Of a stretch of 64,000 nucleotides of DNA, positions 1-42,183 are shown piece by piece. Both the position numbers and the translations under genes were made by a program. The stretch is taken from contig NC_134832.1 in NCBI RefSeq assembly GCF_004210375.1, positions 156,237,592-156,301,591 of the forward strand, read 5' to 3'. This DNA is from Tachypleus tridentatus (taxonomy: Eukaryota > Arthropoda > Merostomata > Xiphosura > Limulidae). Below the pieces are notes generated by a model that was given only the letters and a program-made list of their open reading frames with translations, was not told the DNA's origin and made no database searches. Within the stretch, counting starts at the first letter, position 1, and each line of letters starts with the position of its first letter.

Positions 1-2843
1 GACAAGGTTTGGAAAATTAGGAGGATGTGGAAGTTTTCCCCAGTCTAACTCTTTGATCTTTACAGATGATAATCAGATGGGACAAGGCTTGGAGAATAAG
101 GAGGATGTGGAAGATTTCCCCAGTCTAACTCTTCGATCTTTAGAGATGATAATAGATGATAATCAGATGGGACAAGGTTTGGAGAATAAGGATGATGTGG
201 AAGTTTTCCCCAGTCTAACTCTTCAATCTTTAGAGATGATAATAGATGATAATCAAATGGGACAAGGTTTGGAGAATAAGGAGGATGTGGAAGTTTTCCC
301 CAGTTTAGCTCTTCAATCTTTCGAGATGATAATAGATGATAATCAGATGGGACAAGGTTTGGAGAATAAGGATGATGTGGAAGTTTTCCCCAGGCTAACT
401 CTTCAATCTTTACTGATGATAATATGATGGGACAAGGCTTGGAGAATAAAGAGGATGTGGAAGATTTCCCCAGTCTAACTCTTCGATCTTTACAGATGAT
501 AATCAGATGGGACAAGGTTTGAAAAATTAGGAGGATGTGGAAGTTTTCCCCAGTCTAACTCTTCGATCTTTACAGATGATAATCAGATGGGACAAGGTTT
601 GGAGAATAAGGAGGATGTGGAAGTTTTCCCCAGTTTAGCTCTTCTATCTTTAGAGATGATAATAGATGATAATCAGATGGGACAAGGCTTGGAGAATAAG
701 GATGATGTGGAAGTTTTCCCCAGTCTAACTCTTCAATCTTTAGAGATGATAATAGATGATAATCAAATGGGACAAGGTTTGGAGAATTAGGAGGATGTGG
801 AAGTTTTCCCCAGTCTAACTCTTCGATCTTTACAGATGATAATCAGATGGGACAAGATTTGGAGAATAAGGAGGATGTGGAAGTTTTCCCCAATTTAGCT
901 CTTCAATCTTTAGAGATGATAATAGATGATAATCAGATGGGACAAGGTGTGGAGAATAAGGATGATGTGGAAGTTTTCCCCAAGCTAACTCTTCAATCTT
1001 TACTGATGATAATCAGATGGGACAAGGCTTGGAGAATAAGGATGATGTGGAAGTTTTCCCCATTCTAACTCTTCAATCTTTACAGATGATAATCAGATGG
1101 GACAAGGTTTGGAGAATAAGAAGGATGTGGAAGTTTTCCCCAGTCTATCTCTTCGATCTTTACAGATGATAATCAGATGGGACAAAGTTTGGAGAATAAG
1201 AAGGATGTGGAAGTTTTCCCCAGTCTAACTCTTCAATATTTACAGATGATAATAGATGATAATCAGATGGGACAAGGCTTGGAGAATAAGGAGGATGTGG
1301 AAGATTTCCTCAGTCTAACTCTTCGATCTTTACAGATGATAATCAGATGGGACAAGGCATGGAGAATGAGAAGGATATGGAAGTTTTCCCCAGTTAACTC
1401 TTCAATCTTTATAGATGATAATAGATGATAATCAGATGGGACAAAGTTTGGAGAATAAGGATGATGTGGAAGTTTTCCCAGTCTAACTCTTCAATTTTTA
1501 CAGATGATAATCAGATGGGACAAGGTCTGGAGAATAAAAATGATGTGGAAGTTTTCCCAGTCTAACTCTTCAATATTTACAGATGATAATAAATGATAAT
1601 CAGATGGGACAAGGCTTGGAGAATAAAGAGGATATGGAAGTTTTCCCAGTCAAACTCTTCGATTTTTACAGATGATAATCAGATGGGACAAGGTTTGGAA
1701 AATTAGGAGGATGTGGAAGTTTTCCCCAGTCTAACTCTTCGATCTTTACAGATGATAATCAGATGGGACAAGGTTTGGAGAATAAGGAGGATGTGGAAGT
1801 TTTCCCCAGTTTAGCTCTTCAATCTTTAGAGATGATAATAGATGATAATCAGATGGGACAAGGTTTGGAGAATAAGGATGATGTGGAAGTTTTCCCCAGT
1901 CTAACTCTTCAATCTTTACTGATGATAATCAGATGGGACAAGGCTTGGAGAATAAGGATGATATGGAAGTTTTCCCCAGTCTAACTCTTCGATCTTTACA
2001 GATGATAATCAGATGGGACAAGGTTTGGAAAATTAGGAAAATGTGGAAGTTTTCCCCAGTCTAACTCTTCGATCTTTACAGATGATAATCAGATGGGACA
2101 AGATTTGGAGAATAAAAAGGATGTGGAAGTTTTCCCCAGTTTAGCTCTTCAGTCTTTAGAGATGATAATAGATGATAATCAGATGGGACAAGGTTTGGAG
2201 AATAAGGATGATGTGGAAGTTTTCCCCAGGCTAACTCTTCAATCTTTACTGATGATAATCAGATGGGACAAGTCTTGGAGAATAAGGATGATGTGGAAGT
2301 TTTCCCAGTCTAACTCTTCAATATTTACAGATGATAATAGATGATAATCAGATGGGACAAGGCTTGGAGAATAAGGAGGATGTGGAAGATTTCCCCAGTC
2401 TAACTCTTCGATCTTTACAGATGATAATCAGATGGGACAAGGCTTGGAGAATGAGAAGGATATGGAAGTTTTTTCCAGTTTAGCTCTTCAATCTTTAGAG
2501 ATGATAATAGATGATAATCAGATGGGACAAGGTTTGGAGAATAAGAAGGATTTGGAAGTTTTCCCCAGTTGAGCTCTTCAATCTTTACAGATGATAATCA
2601 GATGGGACAAGGTTTGGAGAATAAGGATGATGTGGAAGTTTTCCCAGTCCAACTCTTCAATATTTACAGATGATAATAGATGATAATCATATGGGACAAG
2701 GCTTGGAGAATAAGGATGATGTGGAAGTTTTCTCCAGTCTAACTCTTCAATATTTACAGATGATAATAGATGATAATCAGATGGGACAAGGCTTGGAGAA
2801 TAAGGAGGATGTGGAAGATTTCCCCAGTCTAACTCTTCGATCT

Positions 2844-3514
2844 TTACAGATGATAATCAGATGGGACAAGGTTTGGAGAATAAGGAGGATGTGGAAGTTT
2901 TCCCCAGTTTAGCTCTTCAATCTTTAGAGATGATAATAGATGATAATCAGATGGGACAAGGTTTGGAGAATAAGAAGGATGTGGAAGTTTTCCCCAGTCT
3001 AGCTCTTCAATATTTACAGATGATAATAGATGATAATCAGATGGGACAAGGCTTGGAGAATAAGGAGGATGTGGAAGTTTTCCCCAATTTAGCTCTTCAA
3101 TCTTTAGAGATGATAATAGATGATAATCAGATGGGACAAGGCTTGCAGAATAAGGAGGATGTGGAAGTTTTCCCCAGTTTAGCTCTTCAATCTTTAGAGA
3201 TGATAATAGATGATAATCAGATGGGACAAGGCTTGGAGAATAAGGAGGATGTGGAAGTTTTCCCCAGTTTAGCTCTTCAATCTTTAGAGATGATAATAGA
3301 TGATAATCAGATGGGACAAGGTTTGGAGAATAAGGAGGATGTGGAAGTTTTCCCCAGTCTAGCTCTTCAATATTTACAGATGATAATAGATGATAATCAG
3401 ATGGGACAAGGCTTGGAGAATAAGGAGGATGTGGAAGTTTTCCCCAGTTTAGCACTTCAATCTTTAGAGATGATAATAGATGATAATCAGATGGGACAAG
3501 GTTTGGAAAATTAG
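2844..3514. repeat. Higher-order block, copies near 2.86, 7.39 and 15.24 kb
   Basis: A run of seven 90-bp monomers at 2,861-3,514 recurs almost unchanged at 7,390-8,043 (offset 4,529) and 15,240-15,893 (offset 12,379). The order of diagnostic variants is the same, including the CTTGCAGAAT monomer and the AATATTTACAG monomers. The copies differ at only a few bases, for example CCCAATTT against CCCAGTTT. This shows multi-monomer segments were copied as blocks. Confidence 0.85.
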
Positions 3515-6500
3515 GAGGATGTGGAAGTTTTCCCCAGTCTAACTCTTCGATCTTTACAGATGATAATCAGATGGGACAAGGTTTGGAGAATAAGGAGGAT
3601 GTGGAAGTTTTCCCCAGTTTAGCTCTTCAATCTTTAGAGATGATAATAGATGATAATCAGATGGGACAAGGTTTGGAGAATAAGGATGATATGGAAGTTT
3701 TCCCCAGTCTAACTCTTCGATCTTTACAGATGATAATCAGATGGGACAAGTTTGGAAAATTAGGAAAATGTGGAAGTTTTCCCAGTCTAACTCTTCGATC
3801 TTTACAGATGATAATCAGATGGGACAAGATTTGGAGAATAAGGAGGATGTGGAAGTTTTCCCCAGTTTAGCTCTTCAATCTTTAGAGATGATATTAGATG
3901 ATAATCAGATGGGACAAGGTTTGGAGAATAAGAAGGATGTGGAAGTTTTCCCCAGTCTAGCTCTTCAATATTTACAGATGATAATAGATGATAATCAGAT
4001 GGGACAAGGCTTGGAGAATAAGGAGGATGTGGAAGTTTTCCCCAATTTAGCTCTTCAATCTTTAGAGATGATAATAGATGATAATCAGATGGGACAAGGC
4101 TTGCAGAATAAGGAGGATGTGGAAGTTTTCCCCAGTTTAGATCTTCAATCTTTAGAGATGATAATAGATGATAATCAGATGGGACAAGGCTTGGAGAATA
4201 AGGAGGATGTGGAAGTTTTCCCAGTTTAGCTCTTCAATCTTTAGAGATGATAATAGATGATAATCAGATGGGACAAGGTTTGGAGAATAAGGAGGATGTG
4301 GAAGTTTTCCCCAGTCTAGCTCTTCAATATTTACAGATGATAATAGATGATAATCAGATGGGACAAGGCTTGGAGAATAAGGAGGATGTGGAAGTTTTCC
4401 CCAGTTTAGCACTTCAATCTTTAGAGATGATAATAGATGATAATCAGATGGGACAAGGTTTGGAAAATTAGGAGGATGTGGAAGTTTTCCCAGTCTAACT
4501 CTTCGATCTTTACAGATGATAATCAGATGGGACAAGGTTTGGAGAATAAGGAGGATGTGGAAGTTTTCCCCAGTTTAGCTCTTCAATCTTTAGAGATGAT
4601 AATAGATGATAATCAGATGGGACAAGGTTTGGAGAATAAGGATGATATGGAAGTTTTCCCCAGTCTAACTCTTCGATCTTTACAGATGATAATCAGATGG
4701 GACAAGTTTGGAAAATTAGGAAAATGTGGAAGTTTTCCCCAGTCTAACTCTTCGATCTTTACAGATGATAATCAGATGGGACAAGATTTGGAGAATAAGG
4801 AGGATGTGGAAGTTTTCCCAGTTTAGCTCTTCAATCTTTAGAGATGATATTAGATGATAATCAGATGGGACAAGGTTTGGAGAATAAGGATGATGTGGAA
4901 GTTTTCACCAGTCTAACTCTTCAATCTTTACTGATGATAATCAGATGGGACAAAACTTGGAGAATAAGGATGATGTGGAAGTTTTCCCAGTCTAACTCTT
5001 CAATCTTTACAGATGATAATCAGATGGGACAAGATTTGGAGAAGAAGAAGGATGTGGAAGTTTTCCCAGTCTATCTCTTCGATCTTTACAGATGATAATC
5101 AGATGGGACAAAGTTTGGAGAATAAGAAGGATGTGGAAGTTTTCCCAGTCTAACTCTTCAATATTTACAGATGATAATAGATGATAATCAGATGGGACAA
5201 GGCTTGGAGAATAAGGAGGATGTGGAAGATTTCCCCAGTCTAACTCTTCGATCTTTACAGATGATAATCAGATGGGACAAGGCTTGGAGAATGAGAAGGA
5301 TATGGAAGTTTTCCCCAGTCTAACTCTTCAATCTTTAGAGATGATAATAGATGATAATCAGATGGGACAAGGTTTGGAGAATTAGGAGGATGTGGAAGTT
5401 TTCCCCAGTCTAACTCTTCGATCTTTACAGATGATAATCAGATGGGACAAGGTTTGGAGTATAAGGAGGATGTGGAAGTTTTCCCCAGTTTAGCTCTTCT
5501 ATCTTTAGAGATGATAATAGATGATAATCAGATGGGACAAGGTTTGGAGAATAAGGAGGATGTGGAAGTTTTCCCCAGTTTAGCTCTTCAATCTTTACAG
5601 ATTATAATCAGATGGAACAAGGTCTGGAGAATAAGGATGATGTGGAAGTTTTCCCCAGTTAACTCTTCAATCTTTATAGATGATAATAGATTATAATCAG
5701 ATGGGACAAGGTTTGGAGAATAAGGATGATGTGGAAGTTTTCCGCAGTCTAACTCTTCAATTTTTACAGATTATAATCAGATGGGACAAGGTCTGGAGAA
5801 TAAAAATGATGTGGAAGTTTTCTCCAGTCTAACTCTTCAATATTTACAGATGATAATAAATGATAATCAGATGGGACAAGGCTTGGAGAATAAGGAGGAT
5901 ATGGAAGTTTTCCCCAGTTTAGCTCTTCAATCTTTCGAGATGATAATAGATGATAATCAGATGGGACAAGATTTGGAGAATAAGGAGGATGTGGAAGTTT
6001 TCCCCAGTTTAGCTCTTCAATCTTTCGAGATGATAATAGATGATAATCAGATGGGACAAGGTTTGGAGAATAAGGATGATGTGGAAGTTTTCCCCAGGCT
6101 AACTCTTCAATCTTTACTGATGATAATATGATGGGACAAGGCTTGGAGAATAAGGAGGATGTGGAAGATTTCCCCAGTCTAACTCTTCGATCTTTACAGA
6201 TGATAATCAGATGGGACAAGGTTTGAAAAATTAGGAGGATGTGGAAGTTTTCCCCAGTCTAACTCTTCGATCTTTACAGATGATAATCAGATGGGACAAG
6301 GTTTGGAGAATAAGGAGGATGTGGAAGTTTTCCCCAGTTTAGCTCTTCTATCTTTAGAGATGATAATAGATGATAATCAGATGGGACAAGGCTTGGAGAA
6401 TAAGGATGATGTGGAAGTTTTCCCCAGTCTAACTCTTCAATCTTTAGAGATGATAATAGATGATAATCAAATGGGACAAGGTTTGGAGAATAAGGAGGAT

Positions 6501-9500
6501 GTGGAAGTTTTCCCCAGTCTAACTCTTCGATCTTTACAGATGATAATCAGATGGGACAAGATTTGGAGAATAAGGAGGATGTGGAAGTTTTCCCCAATTT
6601 AGCTCTTCAATCTTTACAGATGATAATCAGATGGGACAAGATTTGGAGAATAAGAAGGATGTGGAAGTTTTCCCCAGTCTATCTCTTCGATCTTTACAGA
6701 TGATAATCAGATGGGACAAAGTTTGGAGAATAAGAAGGATGTGGAAGTTTTCCCCAGTCTAACTCTTCAATATTTACAGATGATAATAGATGATAATCAG
6801 ATGGGACAAGGCTTGGAGAATAAGGAGGATGTGGAAGATTTCCTCAGTCTAACTCTTCGATCTTTACAGATGATAATCAGATGGGACAAGGCATGGAGAA
6901 TGAGAAGGATATGGAAGTTTTCCCCAGTTAACTCTTCAATCTTTATAGATGATAATAGATGATAATCAGATGGGACAAAGTTTGGAGAATAAGGATGATG
7001 TGGAAGTTTTCTGCTGTCTAACTCTTCAATTTTTACAGATTATAATCAGATGGGACAAGGTCTGGAGAATAAAAATGATGTGGAAGTTTTCTCCAGTTGA
7101 GCTCTTCAATCTTTACAGATGATAATCAGATGGGACAAGGTTTGGAGAATAAGGATGATGTGGAAGTTTTCTCCAGTCCAACTCTTCAATATTTACAGAT
7201 GATAATAGATGATAATCATATGGGACAAGGCTTGGAGAATAAGGATGATGTGGAAGTTTTCTCCAGTCTAACTCTTCAATATTTACAGATGATAATAGAT
7301 GATAATCAGATGGGACAAGGCTTGGAGAATAAGGAGGATGTGGAAGATTTCCCCAGTCTAACTCTTCGATCTTTACAGATGATAATCAGATGGGACAAGG
7401 TTTGGAGAATAAGGAGGATGTGGAAGTTTTCCCCAGTTTAGCTCTTCAATCTTTAGAGATGATAATAGATGATAATCAGATGGGACAAGGTTTGGAGAAT
7501 AAGAAGGATGTGGAAGTTTTCCCCAGTCTAGCTCTTCAATATTTACAGATGATAATAGATGATAATCAGATGGGACAAGGCTTGGAGAATAAGGAGGATG
7601 TGGAAGTTTTCCCCAGTTTAGCTCTTCAATCTTTAGAGATGATAATAGATGATAATCAGATGGGACAAGGCTTGCAGAATAAGGAGGATGTGGAAGTTTT
7701 CCCCAGTTTAGCTCTTCAATCTTTAGAGATGATAATAGATGATAATCAGATGGGACAAGGCTTGGAGAATAAGGAGGATGTGGAAGTTTTCCCCACTTTA
7801 GCTCTTCAATCTTTAGAGATGATAATAGATGATAATCAGATGGGACAAGGTTTGGAGAATAAGGAGGATGTGGAAGTTTTCCCCAGTCTAGCTCTTCAAT
7901 ATTTACAGATGATAATAGATGATAATCAGATGGGACAAGGCTTGGAGAATAAGGAGGATGTGGAAGTTTTCCCCAGTTTAGCACTTCAATCTTTAGAGAT
8001 GATAATAGATGATAATCAGATGGGACAAGGTTTGGAAAATTAGGAGGATGTGGAAGTTTTCCCAGTCTAACTCTTCGATCTTTACAGATGATAATCAGAT
8101 GGGACAAGGTTTGGAGAATAAGGAGGATGTGGAAGTTTTCCCCAGTTTAGCTCTTCAATCTTTAGAGATGATAATAGATGATAATCAGATGGGACAAGGT
8201 TTGGAGAATAAGGATGATATGGAAGTTTTCCCCAGTCTAACTCTTCGATCTTTACAGATGATAATCAGATGGGACAAGTTTGGAAAATTAGGAAAATGTG
8301 GAAGTTTTCCCCAGTCTAACTCTTCGATCTTTACAGATGATAATCAGATGGGACAAGATTTGGAGAATAAGGAGGATGTGGAAGTTTTCCCCAGTTTAGC
8401 TCTTCAATCTTTAGAGATGATATTAGATGATAATCAGATGGGACAAGGTTTGGAGAATAAGAAGGATGTGGAAGTTTTCCCCAGTCTAGCTCTTCAATAT
8501 TTACAGATGATAATAGATGATAATCAGATGGGACAAGGCTTGGAGAATAAGGAGGATGTGGAAGTTTTCCCCAATTTAGCTCTTCAATCTTTAGAGATGA
8601 TAATAGATGATAATCAGATGGGACAAGGCTTGCAGAATAAGGAGGATGTGGAAGTTTTCCCCAGTTTAGCTCTTCAATCTTTAGAGATGATAATAGATGA
8701 TAATCAGATGGGACAAGGCTTGGAGAATAAGGAGGATGTGGAAGTTTTCCCCACTTTAGCTCTTCAATCTTTAGAGATGATAATAGATGATAATCAGATG
8801 GGACAAGGTTTGGAGAATAAGGAGGATGTGGAAGTTTTCCCCAGTCTAGCTCTTCAATATTTACAGATGATAATAGATGATAATCAGATGGGACAAGGCT
8901 TGGAGAATAAGGAGGATGTGGAAGTTTTCCCAGTTTAGCTCTTCAATCTTTAGAGATGATAATAGATGATAATCAGATGGGACAAGGTTTGGAAAATTAG
9001 GAGGATGTGGAAGTTTTCCCAGTCTAACTCTTCGATCTTTACAGATGATAATCAGATGGGACAAGGTTTGGAGAATAAGGAGGATGTGGAAGTTTTCCCC
9101 AGTTTAGCTCTTCAATCTTTAGAGATGATAATAGATGATAATCAGATGGGACAAGGTTTGGAGAATAAGGATGATATGGAAGTTTTCCCCAGTCTAACTC
9201 TTCGATCTTTACAGATGATAATCAGATGGGACAAGTTTGGAAAATTAGGAAAATGTGGAAGTTTTCCCCAGTCTAACTCTTCGATCTTTACAGATGATAA
9301 TCAGATGGGACAAGATTTGGAGAATAAGGAGGATGTGGAAGTTTTCCCCAGTTTAGCTCTTCAATCTTTAGAGATGATATTAGATGATAATCAGATGGGA
9401 CAAGGTTTGGAGAATAAGGATGATGTGGAAGTTTTCACCAGGCTAACTCTTCAATCTTTACTGATGATAATCAGATGGGACAAAACTTGGAGAATAAGGA

Positions 9501-9634
9501 TGATGTGGAAGTTTTCCCCAGTCTAACTCTTCAATCTTTACAGATGATAATCAGATGGGACAAGATTTGGAGAAGAAGAAGGATGTGGAAGTTTTTCCCA
9601 GTCTATCTCTTCGATCTTTACAGATGATAATCAG

Positions 9635-12600
9635 ATGGGACAAAGTTTGGAGAATAAGAAGGATGTGGAAGTTTTCCCCAGTCTAACTCTTCAATATTTA
9701 CAGATGATAATAGATGATAATCAGATGGGACAAGGCTTGGAGAATAAGGAGGATGTGGAAGATTTCCCCAGTCTAACTCTTCGATCTTTACAGATGATAA
9801 TCAGATGGGACAAGGCTTGGAGAATGAGAAGGATATGGAAGTTTTCCCCAGTCTAACTCTTGAATCTTTAGAGATGATAATAGATGATAATCAGATGGGA
9901 CAAGGTTTGGAGAATTAGGAGGATGTGGAAGTTTTCCCCAGTCTAACTCTTCGATCTTTACAGATGATAATCAGATGGGACAAGATTTGGAGAATAAGGA
10001 GGATGTGGAAGTTTTCCCCAGTTTAGCTCTTCAATTTTTAGAAATGATAATAGATGATAATCAGATGGGACAAGGTTTGGAGAATAAGGATGATGTGGAA
10101 GTTTTCCCCAGGCTAACTCTTCAATCTTTACTGATGATAATCAGATGGGACAAGGCTTGGATAATAAGGATGATGTGGAAGTTTTCCCCAGTCTAACTCT
10201 TCAATCTTTACAGATGATAATCAAATGGGACAAGATTTGGAGAATAAGAAGGATGTGGAAGTTTTCCCCAGTCTATCTCTTCGATCTTTACAGATGATAA
10301 TCAAATGGGACAAAGTTTGGAGAATAAGAAGGATGTGGAAGTTTTCCCCAGTCTAACTCTTCAATATTTACAGATGATAATCAGATGGGACAAGGCTTGG
10401 AGAATAAGGAGGATGTGGAAGATTTCCCCAGTTTAACTCTTCGATCTTTACAGATGATAATCAGATGGGACAAGGCTTGGAGAATGAGAAGAATATGGAA
10501 GTTTTCCCCAGTCTAACTCTTCAATCTTTAGAGATGATAATAGGTGATAATCAGATGGGACAAGGTTTGGAGAATTAGGAGGATGTGGAAGTTTTCCCCA
10601 GTCTAACTCTTCGATCTTTACAGATGATAATCAGATGGGACAAGATTTGGAGAATAAGGAGGATGTGGAAGTTTTCCCCAGTTTAGCTCTTCAATTTTTA
10701 GAGATGATAATAGATGATAATCAGATGGGACAAGGTTTGGAGAATAAGGATGATGTGGAAGTTTTCCCCAGGCTAACTCTTCAATCTTTACTGATGATAA
10801 TCAGATGGGACAAGGCTTGGAGAATAAGGATGATGTGGAAGTTTTCCCCAGTCTAACTCTTCAATCTTTACAGATGATAATCAAATGGGACAAGATTTGG
10901 AGAATAAGAAGGATGTGGAAGTTTTTCCCAGTCTATCTCTTCGATCTTTACAGATGATAATCAAATGGGACAAAATTTGGAGAATAAGAAGGATGTGGAA
11001 GTTTTCCCCAGTCTAACTCTTCAATCTTTACAGATTATAATCAGATGGGACAAGTTCTGGAGAATAAGGATGATGTGGAAGTTTTCCCCAGTTAACTCTT
11101 CAATCTTTATAGATGATAATAGATGATAATCAGATGGGACAAGGTTTGGAGAATAAGGATGATGTGAAAGTTTTCCGCAGTCTATCTCTTCAATTTTTAC
11201 AGATTATAATCAGATGGGACAAGGTCTGGAGAATAAAAATGATGTGGAAGTTTTCTCCAGTCTAACTCTTCAATATTTACAGATGATAATAAATGATAAT
11301 CAAATGGGACAAGGCTTGGAGAATAAGGATGATGTGGAAGTTTTCCCCAGTCTAACTCTTCGATCTTTACAGATGATAATCAGATGGGACAAGGTTTGGA
11401 AAATTAGGAGGATGTAGAAGTTTTCCCCAGTCTAACTCTTCGATCTTTACAGATGATAATCAGATGGGACAAGATTTGGAGAATAAGGAGGATGTGGAAG
11501 TTTTCCCCAGTTTAGCTCTTCAATCTTTAGAGATGATAATAGATGATAATCAGATGGGACAAAGTTTGGAGAATAAGGATGATGTGGAAGTTTTCCCCAG
11601 GCTAACTCTTCAATCTTTACAGATGATAATCAAATGGGACAAGATTTGGAGAATAAGAAGGATGTGGAAGTTTTCCCTAGTCTATCTCTTCGATCTTTAC
11701 AGATGATAATCAAATGGGACAAAGTTTGGAGAATAAGAAGGATGTGGAAGTTTTCCCCAGTCTAACTCTTCAATATTTACAGATGATAATAGATGATAAT
11801 CAGATGGGACAAGGCTTGGAGAATAAGGAGGATGTGGAAGATTTCCCCAGTCTAACTCTTCGATCTTTACAGATGATAATCAGATGGGACAAGGCTTGGA
11901 GAATGAGAAGGATATGGAAATTTTCCCCAGTCTAACTCTTCAATCTTTAGAGATGATAATAGATGATAATCAGATGGGACAAGGTTTGGAGAATAAGGAG
12001 GATGTGGAAGTTTTCCCTAGTTTAGCTCTTCAATCTTTACAGATTATAATCAGATGGAACAAGGTATGGAGAATAAGGATGATGTGGAAGTTTTCCCCAG
12101 TCTAACTCTTCAATCTTTACAGATTATAATCAGATGGGACAAGGTCTGGAGAATAAGGATGATGTGGAAGTTTTCCCCAGTTAACTCTTCAATCTTTATA
12201 GATGATAATAGATGATAATCAGATGGGACAAGGTTTGGAGAATAAGGATGATGTGGAAGTTTTCCGCAGTCTAACTCTTCAATTTTTACAGATGATAATC
12301 AGATGGGACAAGGTTTGAAAAATTAGGAGGATGTGGAAGTTTTCCCCAGTCTAACTCTTCGATCTTTACAGATGATAATCAGATGGGACAAGGTTTGGAG
12401 TATAAGGAGGATGTGGAAGTTTTCCCCAGTTTAGCTCTTCTATCTTTAGAGATGATAATAGATGATAATCAGATGGGACAAGGTTTGGAGAATAAGGAGG
12501 ATGTGGAAGTTTTCCCCAGTTTAGCTCTTCAATCTTTACAGATTATAATCAGATGGAACAAGGTCTGGAGAATAAGGATGATGTGGAAGTTTTCCCCAGT

Positions 12601-12640
12601 TGACTCTTCAATCTTTATAGATGATAATAGATTATAATCA
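9635..12640. repeat. Long higher-order block repeated about 6.9 kb further on
   Basis: Monomer order from about 9,500 to at least 11,420 is repeated from about 16,400 to 18,320 with an offset of 6,894-6,904 bp, and similarity continues to about 19,500. The 10-bp steps in the offset reflect gain or loss of the 10-bp element that separates the 80- and 90-bp monomers. Some copies in the right block have a CC to C contraction in CCCCAG. Confidence 0.8.
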
Positions 12641-14220
12641 GATGGGACAAGGTTTGGAGAATAAGGATGATGTGGAAGTTTTCCGCAGTCTATCTCTTCA
12701 ATTTTTACAGATTATAATCAGATGGGACAAGGTCTGGAGAATAAAAATGATGTGGAAGTTTTCTCCAGTCTAACTCTTCAATATTTACAGATGATAATAA
12801 ATGATAATCAGATGGGACAAGGCTTGGAGAATAAAGAGGATATGGAAGTTTTCCCCAGTCTAACTCTTCGATTTTTACAGATGATAATCAGATGGGACAA
12901 GGTTTGGAAAATTAGGAGGATGTGGAAGTTTTCCCCAGTCTAACTCTTTGATCTTTACAGATGATAATCAGATGGGACAAGATTTGGAGAATAAGGAGGA
13001 TGTGGAAGTTTTCCCCAGTTTAGCTCTTCAATCTTTCGAGATGATAATAGATGATAATCAGATGGGACAAGGTTTGGAGAATAAGGATGATGTGGAAGTT
13101 TTCCCCAGGCTAACTCTTCAATCTTTACTGATGATAATCAGATGGGACAAGGCTTGGAGAATAAGGAGGATGTGGAAGATTTTCCCAGTCTAACTCTTCG
13201 ATCTTTACAGATGATAATCAGATGGGACAAGGTTTGAAAAATTAGGAGGATGTGGAAGTTTTCCCCAGTCTAACTCTTCGATCTTTACAGATGATAATCA
13301 GATGGGACAAGGTTTTGAGTATAAGGAGGATGTGGAAGTTTTCCCCAGTTTAGCTCTTCTATCTTTAGAGATGATAATAGATGATAATCAGATGGGACAA
13401 GGTTTGGAGAATAAGGAGGATGTGGAAGTTTTCCCCAGTTTAGCTCTTCAATCTTTACAGATTATAATCAGATGGAACAAGGTCTGGAGAATAAGGATGA
13501 TGTGGAAGTTTTCCCCAGTTAACTCTTCAATCTTTATAGATGATAATAGATTATAATCAGATGGGACAAGGTTTGGAGAATAAGGATGATATGGAAGTTT
13601 TCCGCAGTCTAACTCTTCAATTTTTACAGATTATAATCAGATGGGACAAGGTCTGGAGAATAAAAATGATGTGGAAGTTTTCTCCAGTCTAACTCTTCAA
13701 TATTTACAGATGATAATAAATGATAATCAGATGGGACAAGGCTTGGAGAATAAGGAGGATATGGAAGTTTTCCCCAGTCTAACTCTTCGATTTTTACAGA
13801 TGATAATCAGATGGGACAAGGTTTGGAAAATTAGGAGGATGTGGAAGTTTTCCCCAGTCTAACTCTTTGATCTTTACAGATGATAATCAGATGGGACAAG
13901 ATTTGGAGAATAAGGAGGATGTGGAAGTTTTCCCCAGTTTAGCTCTTCAATCTTTCGAGATGATAATAGATGATAATCAGATGGGACAAGGTTTGGAGAA
14001 TAAGGATGATGTGGAAGTTTTCCCCAGGCTAACTCTTCAATCTTTACTGATGATAATCAGATGGGACAAGGCTTGGAGAATGAGATGGATATGGAAGTTT
14101 TCCCCAGTTAACTCTTCAATCTTTATAGATGATAATAGATGATAATCAGATGGGACAAAGTTTGGAGAATAAGGATGATGTGGAAGTTTTCTGCTGTCTA
14201 ACTCTTCAATTTTTACAGAT
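12383..14220. repeat. 919-bp tandem higher-order unit
   Basis: Diagnostic variants at 12,383, 12,722 and 12,948 recur at 13,302, 13,641 and 13,867, all at an offset of exactly 919 bp, so a group of eleven monomers is itself tandemly duplicated. A related unit of about 957 bp is seen between the blocks at 8,009 and 8,966. Confidence 0.8.
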
Positions 14221-17200
14221 TATAATCAGATGGGACAAGGTCTGGAGAATAAAAATGATGTGGAAGTTTTCTCCAGTCTAACTCTTCAATATTTACAGAT
14301 GATAATAAATGATAATCAGATGGGACAAGGCTTGGAGAATAAAGAGGATATGGAAGTTTTCCCCAGTCTAACTCTTCGATTTTTACAGATGATAATCAGA
14401 TGGGACAAGGTTTGGAAAATTAGGAGGATGTGGAAGTTTTCCCCAGTCTAACTCTTCGATCTTTACAGATGATAATCAGATGGGACAAGGTTTGGAGAAT
14501 AAGGAGGATGTGGAAGTTTTCCCCAGTTTAGCTCTTCAGTCTTTAGAGATGATAATAGATGATTATCAGATGGGACAAGGTTTGGAGAATAAGGATGATG
14601 TAGAAGTTTTCCCCAGTCTAACTCTTCAATCTTTACTGATGATAATCAGATGGGACAAGTCTTGGAGAATAAGGATGATGTGGAAGTTTTCCCCAGTCTA
14701 ACTCTTCAATATTTACAGATGATAATAGATGATAATCAGATGGGGCAAGGCTTGGAGAATAAGGAGGATGTGGAAGATTTCCCCAGTCTAACTCTTCGAT
14801 CTTTACAGATGATAATCAGATGGGACAAGGCTTGGAGAATGAGAAGGATATGGAAGTTTTTTCCAGTTTAGCTCTTCAATCTTTAGAGATGATAATAGAT
14901 GATAATCAGATGGGACAAGGTTTGGAGAATAAGAAGGATTTGGAAGTTTTCCCCAGTTGAGCTCTTCAATCTTTACAGATGATAATCAGATGGGACAAGG
15001 TTTGGAGAATAAGGATGATGTGGAAGTTTTCTCCAGTCTAACTCTTCAATATTTACAGATGATAATAGATGATAATCATATGGGACAAGGCTTGGAGAAT
15101 AAGGATGATGTGGAAGTTTTCTCCAGTCTAACTCTTCAATATTTACAGATGATAATCAGATGGGACAAGGCTTGGAGAATAAGGAGGATGTGGAAGATTT
15201 CCCCAGTCTAACTCTTCGATCTTTACAGATGATAATCAGATGGGACAAGGTTTGGAGAATAAGGAGGATGTGGAAGTTTTCCCCAGTTTAGCTCTTCAAT
15301 CTTTAGAGATGATAATAGATGATAATCAGATGGGACAAGGTTTGGAGAATAAGAAGGATGTGGAAGTTTTCCCCAGTCTAGCTCTTCAATATTTACAGAT
15401 GATAATAGATGATAATCAGATGGGACAAGGCTTGGAGAATAAGGAGGATGTGGAAGTTTTCCCCAATTTAGCTCTTCAATCTTTAGAGATGATAATAGAT
15501 GATAATCAGATGGGACAAGGCTTGCAGAATAAGGAGGATGTGGAAGTTTTCCCCAGTTTAGCTCTTCAATCTTTAGAGATGATAATAGATGATAATCAGA
15601 TGGGACAAGGCTTGGAGAATAAGGAGGATGTGGAAGTTTTCCCCAGTTTAGCTCTTCAATCTTTAGAGATGATAATAGATGATAATCAGATGGGACAAGG
15701 TTTGGAGAATAAGGAGGATGTGGAAGTTTTCCCCAGTCTAGCTCTTCAATATTTACAGATGATAATAGATGATAATCAGATGGGACAAGGCTTGGAGAAT
15801 AAGGAGGATGTGGAAGTTTTCCCCAGTTTAGCTCTTCAATCTTTAGAGATGATAATAGATGATAATCAGATGGGACAAGGTTTGGAAAATTAGGAGGATG
15901 TGGAAGTTTTCCCCAGTCTAACTCTTCGATCTTTACAGATGATAATCAGATGGGACAAGGTTTGGAGAATAAGGAGGATGTGGAAGTTTTCCCCAGTTTA
16001 GCTCTTCAATCTTTAGAGATGATAATAGATGATAATCAGATGGGACAAGGTTTGGAGAATAAGGATGATATGGAAGTTTTCCCCAGTCTAACTCTTCGAT
16101 CTTTACAGATGATAATCAGATGGGACAAGGTTTGGAAAATTAGGAAAATGTGGAAGTTTTCCCCAGTCTAACTCTTCGATCTTTACAGATGATAATCAGA
16201 TGGGACAAGATTTGGAGAATAAGGAGGATGTGGAAGTTTTCTCCAGTTTAGCTCTTCAATCTTTAGAGATGATATTAGATGATAATCAGATGGGACAAGT
16301 TTGGAGAATAAGGATGATGTGGAAGTTTTCACCAGGCTAACTCTTCAATCTTTACTGATGATAATCAGATGGGACAAGGCTTGGAGAATAAGGATGATGT
16401 GGAAGTTTTCCCCAGTCTAACTCTTCAATCTTTACAGATGATAATCAGATGGGACAAGATTTGGAGAAGAAGAAGGATGTGGAAGTTTTTCCCAGTCTAT
16501 CTCTTCGATCTTTACAGATGATAATCAGATGGGACAAAGTTTGGAGAATAAGAAGGATGTGGAAGTTTTCCCCAGTCTAACTCTTCAATATTTACAGATG
16601 ATAATAGATGATAATCAGATGGGACAAGGCTTGGAGAATAAGGAGGATGTGGAAGATTTCCCCAGTCTAACTCTTCGATCTTTACAGATGATAATCAGAT
16701 GGGACAAGGCTTGGAGAATGAGAAGGATATGGAAGTTTTCCCCAGTCTAACTCTTCAATCTTTAGAGATGATAATAGATGATAATCAAATGGGACAAGGT
16801 TTGGAGAATTAGGAGGATGTGGAAGTTTTCCCCAGTCTAACTCTTCGATCTTTACAGATGATAATCAGATGGGACAAGATTTGGAGAATAAGGAGGATGT
16901 GGAAGTTTTCCCCAGTTTAGCTCTTCAATTTTTAGAGATGATAATAGATGATAATCAGATGGGACAAGGTTTGGAGAATAAGGATGATGTGGAAGTTTTC
17001 CCCAGGCTAACTCTTCAATCTTTACTGATGATAATCAGATGGGACAAGGCTTGGATAATAAGGATGATGTGGAAGTTTTCCCCAGTCTAACTCTTCAATC
17101 TTTACAGATGATAATCAAATGGGACAAGATTTGGAGAATAAGAAGGATGTGGAAGTTTTCCCCAGTTTATCTCTTCGATCTTTACAGATGATAATCAAAT

Positions 17201-20200
17201 GGGACAAAGTTTGGAGAATAAGAAGGATGTGGAAGTTTTCCCCAGTCTAACTCTTCAATATTTACAGATGATAATAGATGATAATCAGATGGGACAAGGC
17301 TTGGAGAATAAGGAGGATGTGGAAGATTTCCCCAGTTTAACTCTTCGATCTTTACAGATGATAATCAGATGGGACAAGGCTTGGAGAATGAGAAGAATAT
17401 GGAAGTTTTCCCCAGTCTAACTCTTCAATCTTTAGAGATGATAATAGATGATAATCAGATGGGACAAGGTTTGGAGAATTAGGAGGATGTGGAAGTTTTC
17501 CCCAGTCTAACTCTTCGATCTTTACAGATGATAATCAGATGGGACAAGATTTGGAGAATAAGGAGGATGTGGAAGTTTTCCCCAGTTTAGCTCTTCAATT
17601 TTTAGAGATGATAATAGATGATAATCAGATGGGACAAGGTTTGGAGAATAAGGATGATGTGGAAGTTTTCCCCAGGCTAACTCTTCAATCTTTACTGATG
17701 ATAATCAGATGGGACAAGGCTTGGAGAATAAGGATGATGTGGAAGTTTTCCCAGTCTAACTCTTCAATCTTTACAGATGATAATCAAATGGGACAAGATT
17801 TGGAGAATAAGAAGGATGTGGAAGTTTTTCCCAGTCTATCTCTTCGATCTTTACAGATGATAATCAAATGGGACAAAATTTGGAGAATAAGAAGGATGTG
17901 GAAGTTTTCCCCAGTCTAACTCTTCAATCTTTACAGATTATAATCAGATGGGACAAGTTCTGGAGAATAAGGATGATGTGGAAGTTTTCCCCAGTTAACT
18001 CTTCAATCTTTATAGATGATAATAGATGATAATCAGATGGGACAAGGTTTGGAGAATAAGGATGATGTGGAAGTTTTCCGCAGTCTATCTCTTCAATTTT
18101 TACAGATTATAATCAGATGGGACAAGGTCTGGAGAATAAAAATGATGTGGAAGTTTTCTCCAGTCTAACTCTTCAATATTTACAGATGATAATAAATGAT
18201 AATCAAATGGGACAAGGCTTGGAGAATAAGGATGATGTGGAAGTTTTCCCCAGTCTAACTCTTCGATCTTTACAGATGATAATCAGATGGGACAAGGTTT
18301 GGAAAATTAGGAGGATGTAGAAGTTTTCCCCAGTCTAACTCTTCGATCTTTACAGATGATAATCAGATGGGACAAGATTTGGAGAATAAGGAGGATGTGG
18401 AAGTTTTCCCCAGTTTAGCTCTTCAATCTTTAGAGATGATAATAGATGATAATCAGATGGGACAAAGTTTGGAGAATAAGGATGATGTGGAAGTTTTCCC
18501 AGGCTAACTCTTCAATCTTTACTGATGATAATCAGATGGGACAAGGCTTGGAGAATAAGGATGATGTGGAAGTTTTCCCAGTCTAACTCTTCAATCTTTA
18601 CAGATGATAATCAAATGGGACAAGATTTGGAGAATAAGAAGGATGTGGAAGTTTTCCCAGTCTATCTCTTCGATCTTTACAGATGATAATCAAATGGGAC
18701 AAAGTTTGGAGAATAAGAAGGATGTGGAAGTTTTCCCAGTCTAACTCTTCAATATTTACAGATGATAATAGATGATAATCAGATGGGACAAGGCTTGGAG
18801 AATAAGGAGGATGTGGAAGATTTCCCAGTCTAACTCTTCGATCTTTACAGATGATAATCAGATGGGACAAGGCTTGGAGAATGAGAAGGATATGGAAGTT
18901 TTCCCAGTCTAACTCTTCAATCTTTAGAGATGATAATAGATGATAATCAGATGGGACAAGGTTTGGAGAATAAGGAGGATGTGGAAGTTTTCCCTAGTTT
19001 AGCTCTTCAATCTTTACAGATTATAATCAGATGGAACAAGGTATGGAGAATAAGGATGATGTGGAAGTTTTCCCCAGTCTAACTCTTCAATCTTTACAGA
19101 TTATAATCAGATGGGACAAGGTCTGGAGAATAAGGATGATGTGGAAGTTTTCCCCAGTTAACTCTTCAATCTTTATAGATGATAATAGATGATAATCAGA
19201 TGGGACAAGGTTTGGAGAATAAGGATGATGTGGAAGTTTTCCGCAGTCTAACTCTTCAATTTTTACAGATGATAATCAGATGGGACAAGGTTTGAAAAAT
19301 TAGGAGGATGTGGAAGTTTTCCCCAGTCTAACTCTTCGATCTTTACAGATGATAATCAGATGGGGCAAGGTTTGGAGTATAAGGAGGATGTGGAAGTTTT
19401 CCCCAGTTTAGCTCTTCTATCTTTAGAGATGATAATAGATGATAATCAGATGGGACAAGGTTTGGAGAATAAGGAGGATGTGGAAGTTTTCCCCAGTTTA
19501 GCTCTTCAATCTTTACAGATTATAATCAGATGGAACAAGGTTTGGAAAATTAGGAGGATGTGGAAGTTTTCCCCAGTCTAACTCTTTGATCTTTACAGAT
19601 GATAATCAGATGGGACAAGATTTGGAGAATAAGGAGGATGTGGAAGTTTTCCCCAGTTTAGCTCTTCAATCTTTCGAGATGATAATAGATGATAATCAGA
19701 TGGGACAAGGTTTGGAGAATAAGGATGATGTGGAAGTTTTCCCCAGGCTAACTCTTCAATCTTTACTGATGATAATCAGATGGGACAAGGCTTGGAGAAT
19801 AAGGATGATGTGGAAGTTTTCCCCAGTCTAACTCTTCAATATTTACAGATGATAATAGATGATAATCAGATGGGGCAAGGCTTGGAGAATAAGGAGGATG
19901 TGGAAGATTTCCCCAGTCTAACTCTTCGATCTTTACAGATGATAATCAGATGGGACAAGGCTTGGAGAATGAGAAGGATATGGAAGTTTTCCCCAGTTTA
20001 GCTCTTCAATTTTTAGAGATGATAATAGATGATAATCAGATGGGACAAGGTTTGGAGAATAAGAAGGATTTGGAAGTTTTCCCCAGTTTAGCTCTTCAAT
20101 CTTTACAGATGATAATCAGATGGGACAAGGTTTGGAGAATAAGGATGATGTGGAAGTTTTCTCCAGTCTAACTCTTCAATATTTACAGATGATAATAGAT

Positions 20201-22339
20201 GATAATCATATGGGACAAGGCTTGGAGAATAAGGATGATGTGGAAGTTTTCTCCAGTCTAACTCTTCAATATTTACAGATGATAATAGATGATAATCAGA
20301 TGGGACAAGGCTTGGAGAATAAGGAGGATGTGGAAGATTTCCCCAGTCTAACTCTTCGATCTTTACAGATGATAATCAGATGGGACAAGGCTTGGAGAAT
20401 GAGAAGTATATGGAAGTTTTCCCCAGTTTAGCTCTTCAATCTTTAGAGATGATAATCAGATGGGACAAGGTTTGGAGAATAAGAAGGATTTGGAAGTTTT
20501 CCCCAGTTTAGCTCTTCAATCTTTACAGATGATAATCAGATGGGACAAGGTTTGGAGAATAAGGATGATGTGGAAGTTTTCTCCAGTCTAACTCTTCAAT
20601 ATTTACAGATGATAATAGATGATAATCATATGGGACAAGGCTTGGAGAATAAGGATGATGTGGAAGTTTTCTCCAGTCTAAGTCTTCAATATTTACAGAT
20701 GATAATAGATGATAATCAGATGGGACAAGGCTTGGAGAATAAGGAGGATGTGGAAGATTTCCCCAGTCTAACTCTTCGATCTTTACAGATGATAATCAGA
20801 TGGGACAAGGTTTGGAGAATAAGGAGGATGTGGAAGTTTTCCCCAGTTTAGCTCTTCAATCTTTAGAGATGATAATAGATGATAATCAGATGGGACAAGG
20901 TTTGGAGAATAAGAAGGATGTGGAAGTTTTCCCCAGTTTAGCTTTTCAATCTTTACAGATGATAATCAGATGGGACAAGGTTTGGAGAATAAGGATGATG
21001 TGGAAGTTTTCTCCAGTCTAACTCTTCAATCTTTATTGATGATAATCAGATGGGACAAGGCTTGGAGAATAAGGATGATGTGGAAGTTTTCCCCAGTCTA
21101 ACACTTCAATCTTTACAGATGATAATCAGATGGGACAAGATTTGGAGAATAAGAAGGATGTGGAAGTTTTCCCAGTCTAACTCTTCAATATTTACATATG
21201 ATAATAGATGATAATCAGATGGGACAAGGCTTGGAGAATAAGGAGGATGTGGAAGATTTCCCCAGTTTAACTCTTCGATCTTTACAGATGATAATCAGAT
21301 GGGACAAGGCTTGGAGAATAAGGAGGATGTGGAAGATTTCCCCAGTTTAACTCTTCGATCTTTACAGATGATAATCAGATGGGACAAGGCTTGGAGAATA
21401 AGGAGGATATGGAAGTTTTCCCCAGTCTAACTCTTCGATCTTTACAGATGATAATCAGATGGGACAAGGTTTGGAGAATAAGGAGGATGTGGAAGTTTTC
21501 CCCAGTTTAGCTCTTCAATCTTTAGAGATGATAATAGATGATAATCAGATGGGACAAGGTTTGGAGAATAAGAAGGATGTGGAAGTTTTCCCCAGTTTAG
21601 CTTTTCAATCTTTACAGATGATAATCAGATGGGACAAGGTTTGGAGAATAAGGATGATGTGGAAGTTTTCTCCAGTCTAACTCTTCAATATTTACAGATG
21701 ATAATAGATGATAATCAGATGGGACAAGGCTTGGAGAATAAGGAGGATGTGGAAGATTTTCCCAGTCTAACTCTTCGATCTTTACAGATGATAATTAGAT
21801 GGGACAAGGCTTGGAGAATAAGGAGGATATGGAAGTTTTCCCCAGTCTAACTCTTCGATTTTTACAGATGATAATCAGATGGGACAAGGTTTGGAAAATT
21901 AGGAGGATGTGGAAGTTTTCCCCAGTCTAACTCTTCGATCTTTACAGATGATAATCAGATGGGACAAGGTTTGGAGAATAAGGAGGATGCGGAAGTTTTC
22001 CCCAGTTTAGCTTTTCAATCTTTAGAGATGATAATAGATGATAATCAGATGGGACAAGGTTTGGAGAATAAGGATGATGTGGAAGTTTTCCCCAGTCTAT
22101 CTCTTCGATCTTTACAGATGATAATCACATGGGACAAGGCTTGGATAATAAGGAGGATGTGAAAGTTTTGCCCAGTCTAGCTCTTCAATCTTTACCGATG
22201 ATAATCAGATGGGAGAAGACTTGGAGAATAAGGATGATGTGGAAGTTTTCCCCAGTCTAACTCTTCAATCTTTACAGATGATAATATATTATAATCAGAT
22301 GGGTCAAAGTCTGGAGAATATGGAGGATGGGGAAATTTT

Positions 22340-23304
22340 CCCAGTCTGGTTCTTCAATATTAATGATGTGATCCTTTCTGTATGGGGTCATGCATTATCC
22401 TGGTGTAACATAACATCTTTACGACTCATTAAAGCAGGCCTCTTTACTTTCAATGCAACATTCAAGCGCTCTAACTGTTGCTAATAGAAGTGTGATGTAA
22501 TCGTTACATTGAGTGGCAGCAATTCAAAGTGTATCACAGCAACAATATTCCACCAAAGGCTTAACACGACTTTCCTGAGGTAGAGGTCCATTTTTGGCTG
22601 TGCTTTAGCCAATTTACCTGCACTGAGCTATTGTTTGCAACGCTTAACTATATTATTATATATCCATTTTTCATCTCCAGTCACTAACCTGTCCATTAAA
22701 AGTGAGTTACGTTTACAAAGTGCAGAAAAGGGCAAATGTCCATTCTTGTTCTATGGTTAGCTTCTATCAAGTCATGGGGGACCCATTTTCTAAGTTTTGA
22801 CACCTTTTCAAGCTGTTGCAGATAACGATGGACTGTTGAATGGGTTGAATTAAGCTTCTGTGCCACGTCTTTAACTGTTACAGCGCAAATTTCATCAAGT
22901 GCAGCCAGCAGCAAGTCATCATTAAACTCAACAGGACGGCCTGAATGTGGTGATTCACTTAAACTGTAGTCACCTGATCTGAACTTGTGAAACTACCTTT
23001 GACATTTTCTTTCACTGAGGGATTCCGTACCATAAACACCTTGAATGTTTCGTGTAGTTTTTGTCGTCTTTTTTAAACTCATAAAGCATTATATGCTTAA
23101 TGTGCTCCTCAGCCATATCCATCTTCATAAGGGTTTATTTGATTAATGATCTGAAAACGTGGAATTGAGTTAGTTTCTCTTATTTGTCTTAATATTTTTA
23201 TACACGTCGTGCTACACATTTTAGTCATTAAAGTTTCTATAAAGACAGAAATGATGATAACTTTCTGTATTAAATTTTCGTACATTACTTATGGGATAAC
23301 CTGA
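22340..23304 (-). pseudogene. Degenerate mariner transposase, parent of the adjacent satellite
   Basis: On the minus strand, an ATG at about 23,122 opens a reading frame resembling the N-terminus of mariner transposases (AEEHIKHIMLYEFKK). A clear helix-turn-helix follows at 22,914-22,696 (VAQKLNSTHSTVHRYLQQL, then KWVPHDL). The catalytic core is next, with VTGDEKWIYYNN (first Asp) near 22,680 and LHQDNA-stop-PH (second Asp) near 22,400. The third block, HPPYSPDFDPSDY, is at about 22,340-22,290, after a frameshift and inside the last satellite monomer. Several stops and frameshifts make it non-functional. About 160 bp upstream of the ATG, 23,283-23,304 (CATTACTTATGGGATAACCTGA) looks like a mariner terminal inverted repeat. 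The other end of the element is not seen; the satellite takes its place. It catalysed cut-and-paste transposition at TA sites when active. Confidence 0.9.
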
Positions 23305-23869
23305 CAGATTATAAATGTGTTTTAAGGTGGCGTCTGTTCTCATTCTCATGTTTATTGATTTAATACTTTTTGGTGTTTCGGTTTCTTTTTAGCTCCATTT
23401 TACACTTTTGGTTGGATCTCTGTTTAAAATATATACAGAGATGTGTCTTGAAACTATAATGTTTTTAATTTTAAATAACTGAAGCCCTTTTTTAGTTCTA
23501 GATAACTGTAGCTGGGAGAAAAAATGTCCTTTATAATAAGATAAGTTGATTGCTTGTCATATAATTTATTTTTCTCATATATATATATATATATCTAAAT
23601 AAATGTTTTACGAACATGTTATATCATTATTAATTATAACCTGATTCTCAAAGACACATTACCACTTGATCAGTTGTGTAATCCTACAAATTATTCATTC
23701 TCACAATGAAGGTTGTGTATATTATTAGGAAGTTTGGTTCTTCTCTTCGATTTGGTTTTTGGGTTTTGACGATATGAGCTTCGTGAGCTAAAGAAGCATG
23801 CTTTAATTTAAGCATTTTAAAACGTCAGTTGTAGAAACATTTTGGAAGGACTGTTAAAATATGTTATGC
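23305..23869. other. AT-rich spacer, no gene seen
   Basis: No gene is supported here. The stretch holds a short TA dinucleotide run at about 23,576-23,594 and otherwise AT-rich unique sequence with stops in all frames. Confidence 0.6.
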
Positions 23870-24640
23870 ATAGAATTTTATAAGATAGTCAACATGGTTT
23901 CATTAAGAGAAAATATTATTTTACAAACCTTTTGACATTGTTTGAAAAACTTACTGCTCATGTAGATAAAGGTAAGAGTACAAATTTATAAAAACACTGA
24001 GATCATTTAATGAGTTGGACAATAAACTGCAAATGGATTTGAATTATAATTAATGCAAGATAATGAACGTAGGTTAACATAATTTAAATTATAAGTATAA
24101 TTAAGATTGGAATAACCTTAAAAATGTTACGATATAAATGGATCATGGTGAACTAGTTGATCAATCTCTAAAGCTATCCAAGCAATGTGCTGTGGCTAGT
24201 GGTATGTCAAATAAAAGTTTAGGTTACGTGTACAGAAATGTTGGATATAAGTCTAAAGAAGTTGTGAGTTCATTGTATTAGTCACTGATTAGGCCCTATT
24301 TGGAGTATGGTGTTCAGTATTAGGCCCTTATTTTAGGATGGACATTAAACTGAAAAGGTTCAAAGGAGCTTAACTAGAATGGTAACTGGGATGAAAGAAT
24401 ATTCATCAGAGAAAAGGTTGAAATCTCTCAACTTGTTTACTCATGGAGAAAAAAAGTTAGAATGGATCTGATTGAGGTGTTTAAAATTATAAAAGAAATT
24501 GATGTTGTTGATGCACCATATTTTTTGTAATTATCAGTAAGAACAGTAGGATTCCAGAACAGATATGCAAATTTTGACAGAGTAGAAATCATCTCCAGCT
24601 AAGTAAAATTTATTTTGATTAGAGGGTAGTTAGTTGTCAG
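23870..24640 (+). mobile_element. CR1-like LINE relic, C-terminal part
   Basis: Broken plus-strand frames match the reverse transcriptase and C-terminal region of CR1-type non-LTR elements. QHGFIKRKYYFTNLLTLFEKL occurs near 23,890 in broken form as QHGFIKRKYYFTNLL and LFEKLTAHVDKG. VQRSLTRMVTGMKEYSSEK is only recoverable piecewise at about 24,360-24,420. A DLIEVFKI block lies near 24,465. The copy is homologous to the longer relic at 60.9-63.8 kb; for example the segment at 24,085-24,150 pairs with 63,155-63,220. Many stops and deletions show it is dead. It looks 5'-truncated, as is usual for LINEs. Confidence 0.7.
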
Positions 24641-25300
24641 GATCTTACGTTTTGATACAAAGCAGAACAGTAACTATATGTATTTGTAAATAGATTGTAT
24701 TGTTGTCAGGTTCAGGATTCATGTGTCTGTGACTTGTTATTGATGAATTCAAAGATAAATGAAGACCACATTCTCCACATGTTGTAGAAATAATATATGT
24801 ATACAAAACTAGTTTAACATAATATACAACAAATTATTTACACTATAATTATCGTAATGATATAATGAACGCTATGTGGTTCTTTTCTTCTTGTCAAAAG
24901 TCTGTTTAAGTCTGTTCAATTACTTTAGAATTTCAGTTCACAAGCCAAACACCATCTTCCTATTTATATTGCACCAGTATTCTGGGTAAAATTCTGTCAC
25001 AATTGATATGACAGTTGTATGCATCTCTTCCAGTAATCGTTTGGTTTTATTCCAACATATTTTTTATTTTTTTGTGAAAATACATTCAAGAAGGTTAAAC
25101 CACTTTAAAATCACATTTTGATGGAATTATTATTATTTTTTATCCGTTTAAAAGTCGTAGTGTCACATGTTAAACGTTCGACTCATCTCGTCTACCAAAG
25201 TTAAACTCACATCATTATTTTCCTTGGCCGATACTTTACTTTCTTCCAATACAGTTTGTTTCCTGCTCATTTTATTTTATGTTTATTATTAAGTAGTTTC
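24641..25300. other. Spacer with a diverged segmental duplicate, no firm gene
   Basis: The segment at about 24,750-24,890 (from AAATGAAGACCACATTCTCCAC to ATGTGGTTCTTTTC, quoted only by its ends) is homologous to 26,405-26,440 joined to 26,710-26,815; in the second place a SINE interrupts it. The minus strand at 24,930-25,060 has a short open stretch without known similarity. I see no other feature. Confidence 0.5.
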
Positions 25301-25304
25301 ATCG

Positions 25305-25730: not shown

Positions 25731-25948
25731 AAAATGTTTCTGTAAGATAGATATAAGTGGTTTACAGGATGTAAACTAACTTTCAAACAGTTAAATATTT
25801 GGACAGTAAATCGTAGAACATGAATCATTATCAACATTTATTTATTACGAGACAATATGGGCTCGATGCACCAGTTTTACCAGTAACTCAAAACATTGTA
25901 TTTTCAGGAACGAATCATTCTTTGCTCATAGTTATATATGAGACGTAC

Positions 25949-26028
25949 CTGTATTAGGACAATGTTTAGGATTAAATTTAACATAAATTTTGCAGAGACA
26001 ATTTACGCTCTTGGTGATATATATTTGT
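25949..26028 (-). CDS. Candidate internal exon, Cys-rich, unknown gene
   Basis: An 80-bp minus-strand segment is bordered by a pyrimidine-rich acceptor (TTTTTCCTCAG at about 26,029-26,039) and a donor (ACAG then GTACGTCT). It has only one open frame, which encodes 26 residues including KSVNCLCKIYVKF and KHCPNT. A 29-bp segment at 26,166-26,194, also with AG/GT borders, could precede it in matching phase. Joined to the acceptor near 25,743 the frame meets a stop after eight codons, so it does not connect to the Thr-rich frame. No family is recognised and the whole chain is speculative. Confidence 0.25.
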
Positions 26029-26707: not shown

Positions 26708-26814
26708 AACGCGTTTTAGAAGTAATATATATTCAAAACTAGTTTAACAGATATCCAACAAATTATTTACACTATAATAATCATAATGATATCATGAACA
26801 GTATATGGTTCTTT

Positions 26815-42173: not shown

Positions 42174-42183
42174 TAATGTTTGG

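Follow-up and report, generated by a model that had tools for sequence, protein, structure and literature searches.

A tandem satellite from the catalytic core of a mariner transposase gene, still joined to its likely source, in Tachypleus tridentatus

Satellite DNA can arise from the coding regions of transposable elements (TEs), and the sources named so far include L1 ORF2, CR1 ORF2, gag and tnp2 (PMC9659126). For Tc1/mariner elements, the part of that paper cited here names a mariner inside satellite DNA, a repeat linked to a miniature inverted-repeat transposable element (MITE) and clusters of the whole Bari1 element. In this study, we analyzed a long tandem array made of a piece of a mariner transposase gene in the xiphosuran Tachypleus tridentatus. 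It lies partly within a stretch of 64,000 nucleotides (hereafter the window) on contig NC_134832.1, that is, C8:156237592-156301591 of a 2.17-Gb assembly of 205 contigs, against which all genome-wide searches were run.

A close parallel is CficCl-61-40, a satellite of Chenopodium whose source is the CACTA element Jozin, more exactly its tnp2 transposase domain (PMC7320549). As in the mariner array, its monomer is short (about 40 bp) and of transposase-coding origin, the array adjoins what is left of the transposase and runs in its orientation, and the start monomer belongs to the transposase itself; here, this arrangement was found at the right edge of three loci. However, in the cited part of that paper, CficCl-61-40 belongs to the CACTA superfamily and to plants, represents the most abundant satellite family of its genus and has parental fragments that are deletion derivatives, and the terms 'microhomology' and 'replication slippage' are absent from the main text. 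By contrast, the mariner array occupies three loci of one chromosome, both of its ends can be seen and its likely founding direct repeat can be named. In human, 7,276 of 31,472 minisatellites were reported as TE-derived, and two slippage models were considered (PMC3389668). These also represent tandem duplications inside transposon copies, part of which are explained by direct repeats of 5-20 bp (the Haber and Louis model). As described there, the majority of those unexplained by the two established models have two units only, as against ~558 units and a joined source here. The miDNA4 satellite in a Tc1/mariner MITE of Xenopus is another relative, and microhomologies of at least 5 bp were proposed to drive changes of its array; unlike the mariner array, the MITE is thought to have captured an existing repeat, and the cited part of the paper describes no transposase-coding origin (PMC12628747).

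No published mariner-transposase satellite like the present one was found by title or abstract in the open-licence literature searched. An earlier note on this DNA, made from the sequence alone, had considered a satellite from a coding core with its source attached to be unusual; this view is weakened by the published CACTA case (PMC7320549). Thus, transposase genes are established as sources of satellites, and the present array is a well-preserved example whose birth is recorded with unusual completeness.

On the basis of the results below, we consider it highly probable that this satellite is built from 80 bp of the interior of a single decayed mariner transposase gene to which it is still joined, that it was likely born in place by a slip between CATCT motifs, and that it likely grew by duplication of multi-monomer blocks. 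Amplification in place from one mariner copy, with the source attached, had also been proposed in the earlier note, and is upheld by both boundaries in three paralogous loci and by siblings, that is, dispersed mariner copies with a single unit. The features of the locus are as follows (window positions unless C8 is given).

C8:156213051-156259949: whole satellite array, 46.9 kb, 558 anchors (~558 monomers), from an anchor scan and Tandem Repeats Finder (TRF)
1..22358, minus strand: part of the satellite within the window, 264 anchors, from TRF and anchor scans; the rest extends leftward beyond the window
22285..22358, minus strand: right-edge (parental) unit, joined without break to the remaining transposase
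22359..23128, minus strand: rest of the mariner transposase, an N-terminal part with a weak helix-turn-helix signal and then the Transposase_1 region, with frameshifts and stops
23129..23304, minus strand: mariner 5' untranslated part and 5' terminal repeat, the role being judged by likeness to sibling 3' ends
23305..53369: right flank within a segmental duplication, mostly 1-7% mismatch in a per-kb comparison, some kb without a long match

The array starts 24.5 kb left of the window start and ends at about 22,358-22,365. In the window, TRF gave 264 copies with a period of 80, and the anchor scan gave 264 units whose 263 spacings were 80 (125), 90 (101), 79 or 89 (36) and 78 bp (1). The tandem array had been correctly recognized, but the ~260 copies and the 22 kb given for it before fall well short of the whole. 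The monomer is 80 bp, or 26.7 codons, rather than the 30 codons first supposed, so that the reading frame shifts across 80-bp units; a 90-bp variant with a 10-bp insert makes up 43% of the units. Average divergence between units of the large array is 8.5%, and a search for a higher-order repeat by lag comparison revealed no dominant lag, just irregular blocks. With ~558 units, the locus is a long head-to-tail array of non-coding units, as satellites and minisatellites are.

The consensus monomer peptide on the minus strand, LKIEELDWGKLPHPPYSPNLVPSDYHL, matched Mos1 (chain 3hos_A, positions 263-287) and SETMAR transposase chains in a PDB sequence search (E about 1e-5), which bears out the mariner identity proposed before. 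In the Mos1 chain alignment, the Asp of PSDYHL is position 284, which we take to be the third catalytic Asp of mariner transposase; SETMAR is presumably the human Hsmar1 transposase. Monomer peptides of 27 and 31 residues alone had no Pfam match, likely due to their shortness. It had been claimed that every 80/90-bp monomer encodes the segment HPPYSP-x-LVPSDYHL. The segment itself was confirmed, but not its presence in every unit: across the whole array, 158 of 558 units had an exact HPPYSP and 406 an exact SDYHL, eight units lacked the motif by regular expression, and a stop fell within the segment in 106 of the 550 recognised.

To the right of 22,358, the minus-strand piece matched the same transposases with E down to 1e-19 (PDB chains) and Pfam Transposase_1 (PF01359) with 60.3 bits against a cut-off of 24. 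This transposase, which lies in the same orientation as the monomers and in native order, is related to Mos1/Hsmar1, as is typical of mariner (DD34D) elements, and agrees with the passage from array to transposase that the earlier note had placed at 22,358. It is disrupted by frameshifts and stops. The 5' end of the mariner is found at about 23,304 and is followed by CA; the copy is a truncated remnant without two terminal inverted repeats flanked by TA, and not an intact element. Its missing 3' end was sought, as the earlier note had suggested, but five sibling 3' ends searched against the regions of all three loci gave no match at E 1e-4. With the 5' end present and the 3' end not found, the parent appears to be a mariner whose 3' end has been lost.

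A 461-bp piece of the left flank had three matches in the genome (three candidates, all scored), each with an array: ~558 units at the window locus, 24 at C8:156374989-156376933 and nine at C8:153.987 Mb, the last inverted. The two paralogous loci are 115 kb and 2.2 Mb from the large array on the same chromosome. At the right edge of all three, native transposase passes into the first unit, and the third locus retains GGATCACATTTGGAAAGATTGAAG, near the sibling sequence. The left edge, which is outside the window, follows native mariner sequence for about 20 bp beyond the unit and then departs from it, with nearly the same sequence, GATTATAATCTATTCT(G/A)AGGTT, at all three loci. The recurrence of these junctions beside short arrays of 24 and nine units argues against an assembly join between array and transposase, and the window and the eight stretches checked of the left extension and the second locus (L009-L016) were free of N. 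Although the assembly of long arrays is difficult and may have given an inexact copy number, a false join seems very improbable.

The edges also bear on the possibility that the array was formed at another site, for instance through rolling-circle copying of an extrachromosomal circle, before its insertion beside a mariner. Rolling-circle routes to tandem repeats are among those described in the cited part of PMC12628747, and near-identical multi-monomer blocks would also fit reinsertion of circular copies into the array. However, at three loci the two edges follow the native order of the mariner, the edge unit is continuous with the transposase body, and no other array was seen among the matches listed. 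An origin elsewhere is therefore improbable, though a circle route may have contributed to later growth.

The uniqueness of the array was evaluated with a 20-mer spanning the junction between units. Allowing at most one mismatch, it had 483 matches genome-wide (474 forward and 9 reverse), 478 of which belonged to the three loci (450 and 21 forward, 7 reverse). Two of the five matches elsewhere were listed, a plain sibling with native sequence and a place seemingly unrelated to mariner, and neither was tandem. Thus, dispersal to many arrays in the genome, as known for classical satellites, was not observed. The core 23-mer of the monomer had 418 + 91 occurrences in the genome, including 329 + 6 + 5 in the three loci and 169 elsewhere. 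Of the 100 places listed for it, the smallest array accounted for five; the 95 others were outside the arrays and at least 1 kb from one another. No further array was found among the 23-mer and junction matches listed (the first ~100 places each).

The transposase body of the two paralogs was 99% and 93% identical to that of the window locus, compared with 86% for the best other match (41 matches, the best 40 of 3,903 first-look candidates being scored), which suggests that one mariner insertion founded the array. The right flank is shared with C8:153.96-153.99 Mb (inverted; to about window position 50,370) and also with C8:156.37-156.40 Mb, up to the end of the compared stretch, with a typical mismatch of about 3% between paralogs (roughly 1-8% per kb). 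On sequence comparison, we therefore infer that the array came from a single insertion and that the segmental duplications probably followed its founding. Positional matching of individual units among the three loci revealed no shared order beyond the edges, where units retain some resemblance. A switch of site patterns across the array (on the left, big = small 67, big = third 19 and small = third 31; on the right, 4, 55 and 6, respectively) was first taken as crossing over inside the array. In a control, however, paralog pairings switched repeatedly along C8:156211500-156283000 (500-bp windows, 32 of 38 comparable), which suggests exchange among the paralogs in general rather than an event specific to the array. 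Such switching is as expected from gene conversion among three copies.

To characterize the single-unit ancestor, 28 of the 95 listed dispersed places, all with the exact 23-mer, were examined as siblings. In 15 of them, CATCT occurred twice exactly 80 bp apart. As this spacing equals the monomer length, it points to the likely founding slip: replication or repair may have slipped between two CATCT motifs 80 bp apart inside the mariner transposase gene. The satellite junction, GATTAT-CATCT-GTAAAG, consists of the native sequence that precedes the downstream CATCT and the native sequence that follows the upstream one. For an 80-bp duplication at a random sibling position, microhomology of at least 5 bp would be available in 0.7% of cases (mean of 28; range 0-2.2%). 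Hence, a single unit flanked by a 5-10-bp direct repeat one period apart, the ancestral state of the Haber-Louis model, was found in siblings as stand-ins for the ancestor and is not preserved at the loci. The founding junction in sibling spelling (CTTTGCAGATGATAATCAGATGG-like) was found in none of the 28 siblings at up to two mismatches. The 90-bp form, GATTATCATCTATTATCATCTG, retains native ATT after the downstream CATCT and may have come from a second slip of 10 bp near the native 3' edge.

It should be noted that several observations weigh against this account. First, a strict 80-bp pair is absent from 13 of the 28 siblings: in one, the motif 80 bp after the upstream copy is CATCC, in three the spacing is 79, 81 or 82, in one it is 58, and in eight the scanned range contained no upstream CATCT. 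The siblings were selected by an exact 23-mer with the downstream CATC, so that the downstream half of the repeat is largely present by construction, and two of them (L001 and L002) are near-identical. Second, at their right edges none of the three loci retains the upstream CATCT intact (CATCA at the large locus, CATTT at the third and a small deletion at the second), and the founding slip is therefore read from the siblings and not from the loci themselves. Third, the 90-bp form adjoins the right edge in two of the three loci, so that either the 80- or the 90-bp form may have come first. Finally, the copy number of the array is that of the assembly, and conversion within the array could make its blocks appear younger than they are.

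Unequal exchange is expected to leave old units at the ends of an array and to homogenise its middle. The right-edge unit of the large array differs from the monomer consensus at 12 of 69 sites, compared with a mean of 3.8 and a maximum of 9 of 70 sites in the 557 other units, and the right-edge units of the other two loci differ from it at 9 of 70 and 9 of 69 sites. Among themselves, these three units are rather dissimilar (7 to 15 of 69 sites), and the left-edge units of the large and the smallest locus differ at 2 of 70 sites. Within the large array, near-identical runs include 61 monomers at lag 40 (mean difference 0.5%), 33 at lag 53, 29 at lag 56 and 28 at lag 81. Depending on the minimum run, such blocks comprise 436-490 of 557 units at a threshold of 1.2% and 465-508 at 2%. 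Unequal exchange or repair synthesis might have generated these block duplications. Since the blocks (~1% differences) are less diverged than the paralog flanks (~3%), much of the present length looks recently grown, unless conversion within the array has occurred. This result also argues against an array that was already long before the segmental duplication, with the 24- and nine-unit loci as contractions. The differing unit order between loci with ~3% flank divergence shows that the arrays have turned over, which would be compatible with contraction, but, barring conversion, most units of the long array belong to blocks younger than the flanks; contraction is therefore unlikely, although it deserves to be taken seriously.

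We also considered whether the repeat could be retained for a peptide or another function. In runs of 90-bp units, both strands are open; as 90 is a multiple of three, such units yield long open repeat frames. On the plus strand, frames with 30-residue repeats (MGQGLENKEDVEVFPSLALQSLEMIIDDNQ) reach 309 residues (window 8009-8938 and other runs of 90-bp units), and these would be the point in favor of a function. On the other hand, the frame is broken by 80-bp units, and minor-variant frequencies at codon positions 1, 2 and 3 were 0.071, 0.049 and 0.038; with position 3 the least variable, nothing suggests selection on the peptide. When a 244-residue minus-strand repeat frame was searched against a protein database, none of the 10 candidates reached E 0.001, and two weak Pfam matches of this frame were set aside as likely artefacts of repetition. 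Retention for function is thus extremely improbable. Most likely, the array evolves neutrally as an unstable tandem repeat within a duplicated region rich in minisatellites, and no function is needed.

Other arrays lie in the same duplication. A 63-bp satellite, 98-99% alike, is present at window 27471-32785, C8:156382186-156384830 and C8:153978623-153979691 (~84, 42 and 17 copies, respectively). A 53-bp satellite has 23 copies at window 49179-50402 and at least 178 at C8:153955000-153964529, in the paralog with the smallest mariner array, where it extends to the end of the compared stretch. Array lengths therefore vary independently between paralogs, without a general expansion of one locus. 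On the left side of the duplication, an 82-bp (2 x 41) satellite at C8:156187592-156196875 and C8:154003104-154014999 reaches the ends of the compared stretches; it was tried as a relative of the mariner satellite and rejected, its unit being unrelated. Together with arrays of 40, 43, 54, 55 and 64 bp, it makes the duplication rich in minisatellites. In addition, the window contains two weak protein matches on the minus strand: an open reading frame at 34496-34861, inside the segmental duplication, weakly resembles amiloride-sensitive sodium channels at their C-terminal end (PF00858, 17.5 bits, below the curated cut-off of 23.6), and a reverse-transcriptase remnant is found at 46910-47323 (PF00078, 24.1 bits, under the cut-off of 29.6).

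The origin of a satellite is usually wiped out by its own turnover. Here, a single assembly contains the ancestral unit (in siblings) and the direct repeat that likely founded the array, together with both edges and three paralogous arrays that differ greatly in length, and this set of loci makes the two-step model, a small slippage duplication followed by expansion, directly testable. With it, the influence of sequence, which is common to many siblings, might also be told apart from that of the neighbourhood. We put forward, quite tentatively, that a mariner family numbering thousands of likely copies has a CATCT/80-bp slip site in its catalytic core and that, among the places examined, one copy in a minisatellite-prone duplicated region became a satellite, its three duplicates growing to ~558, 24 and nine units. 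If it is true that one sibling alone became a satellite, this would suggest that the chromosomal neighbourhood, and not the sequence, decides the change from transposon to satellite.

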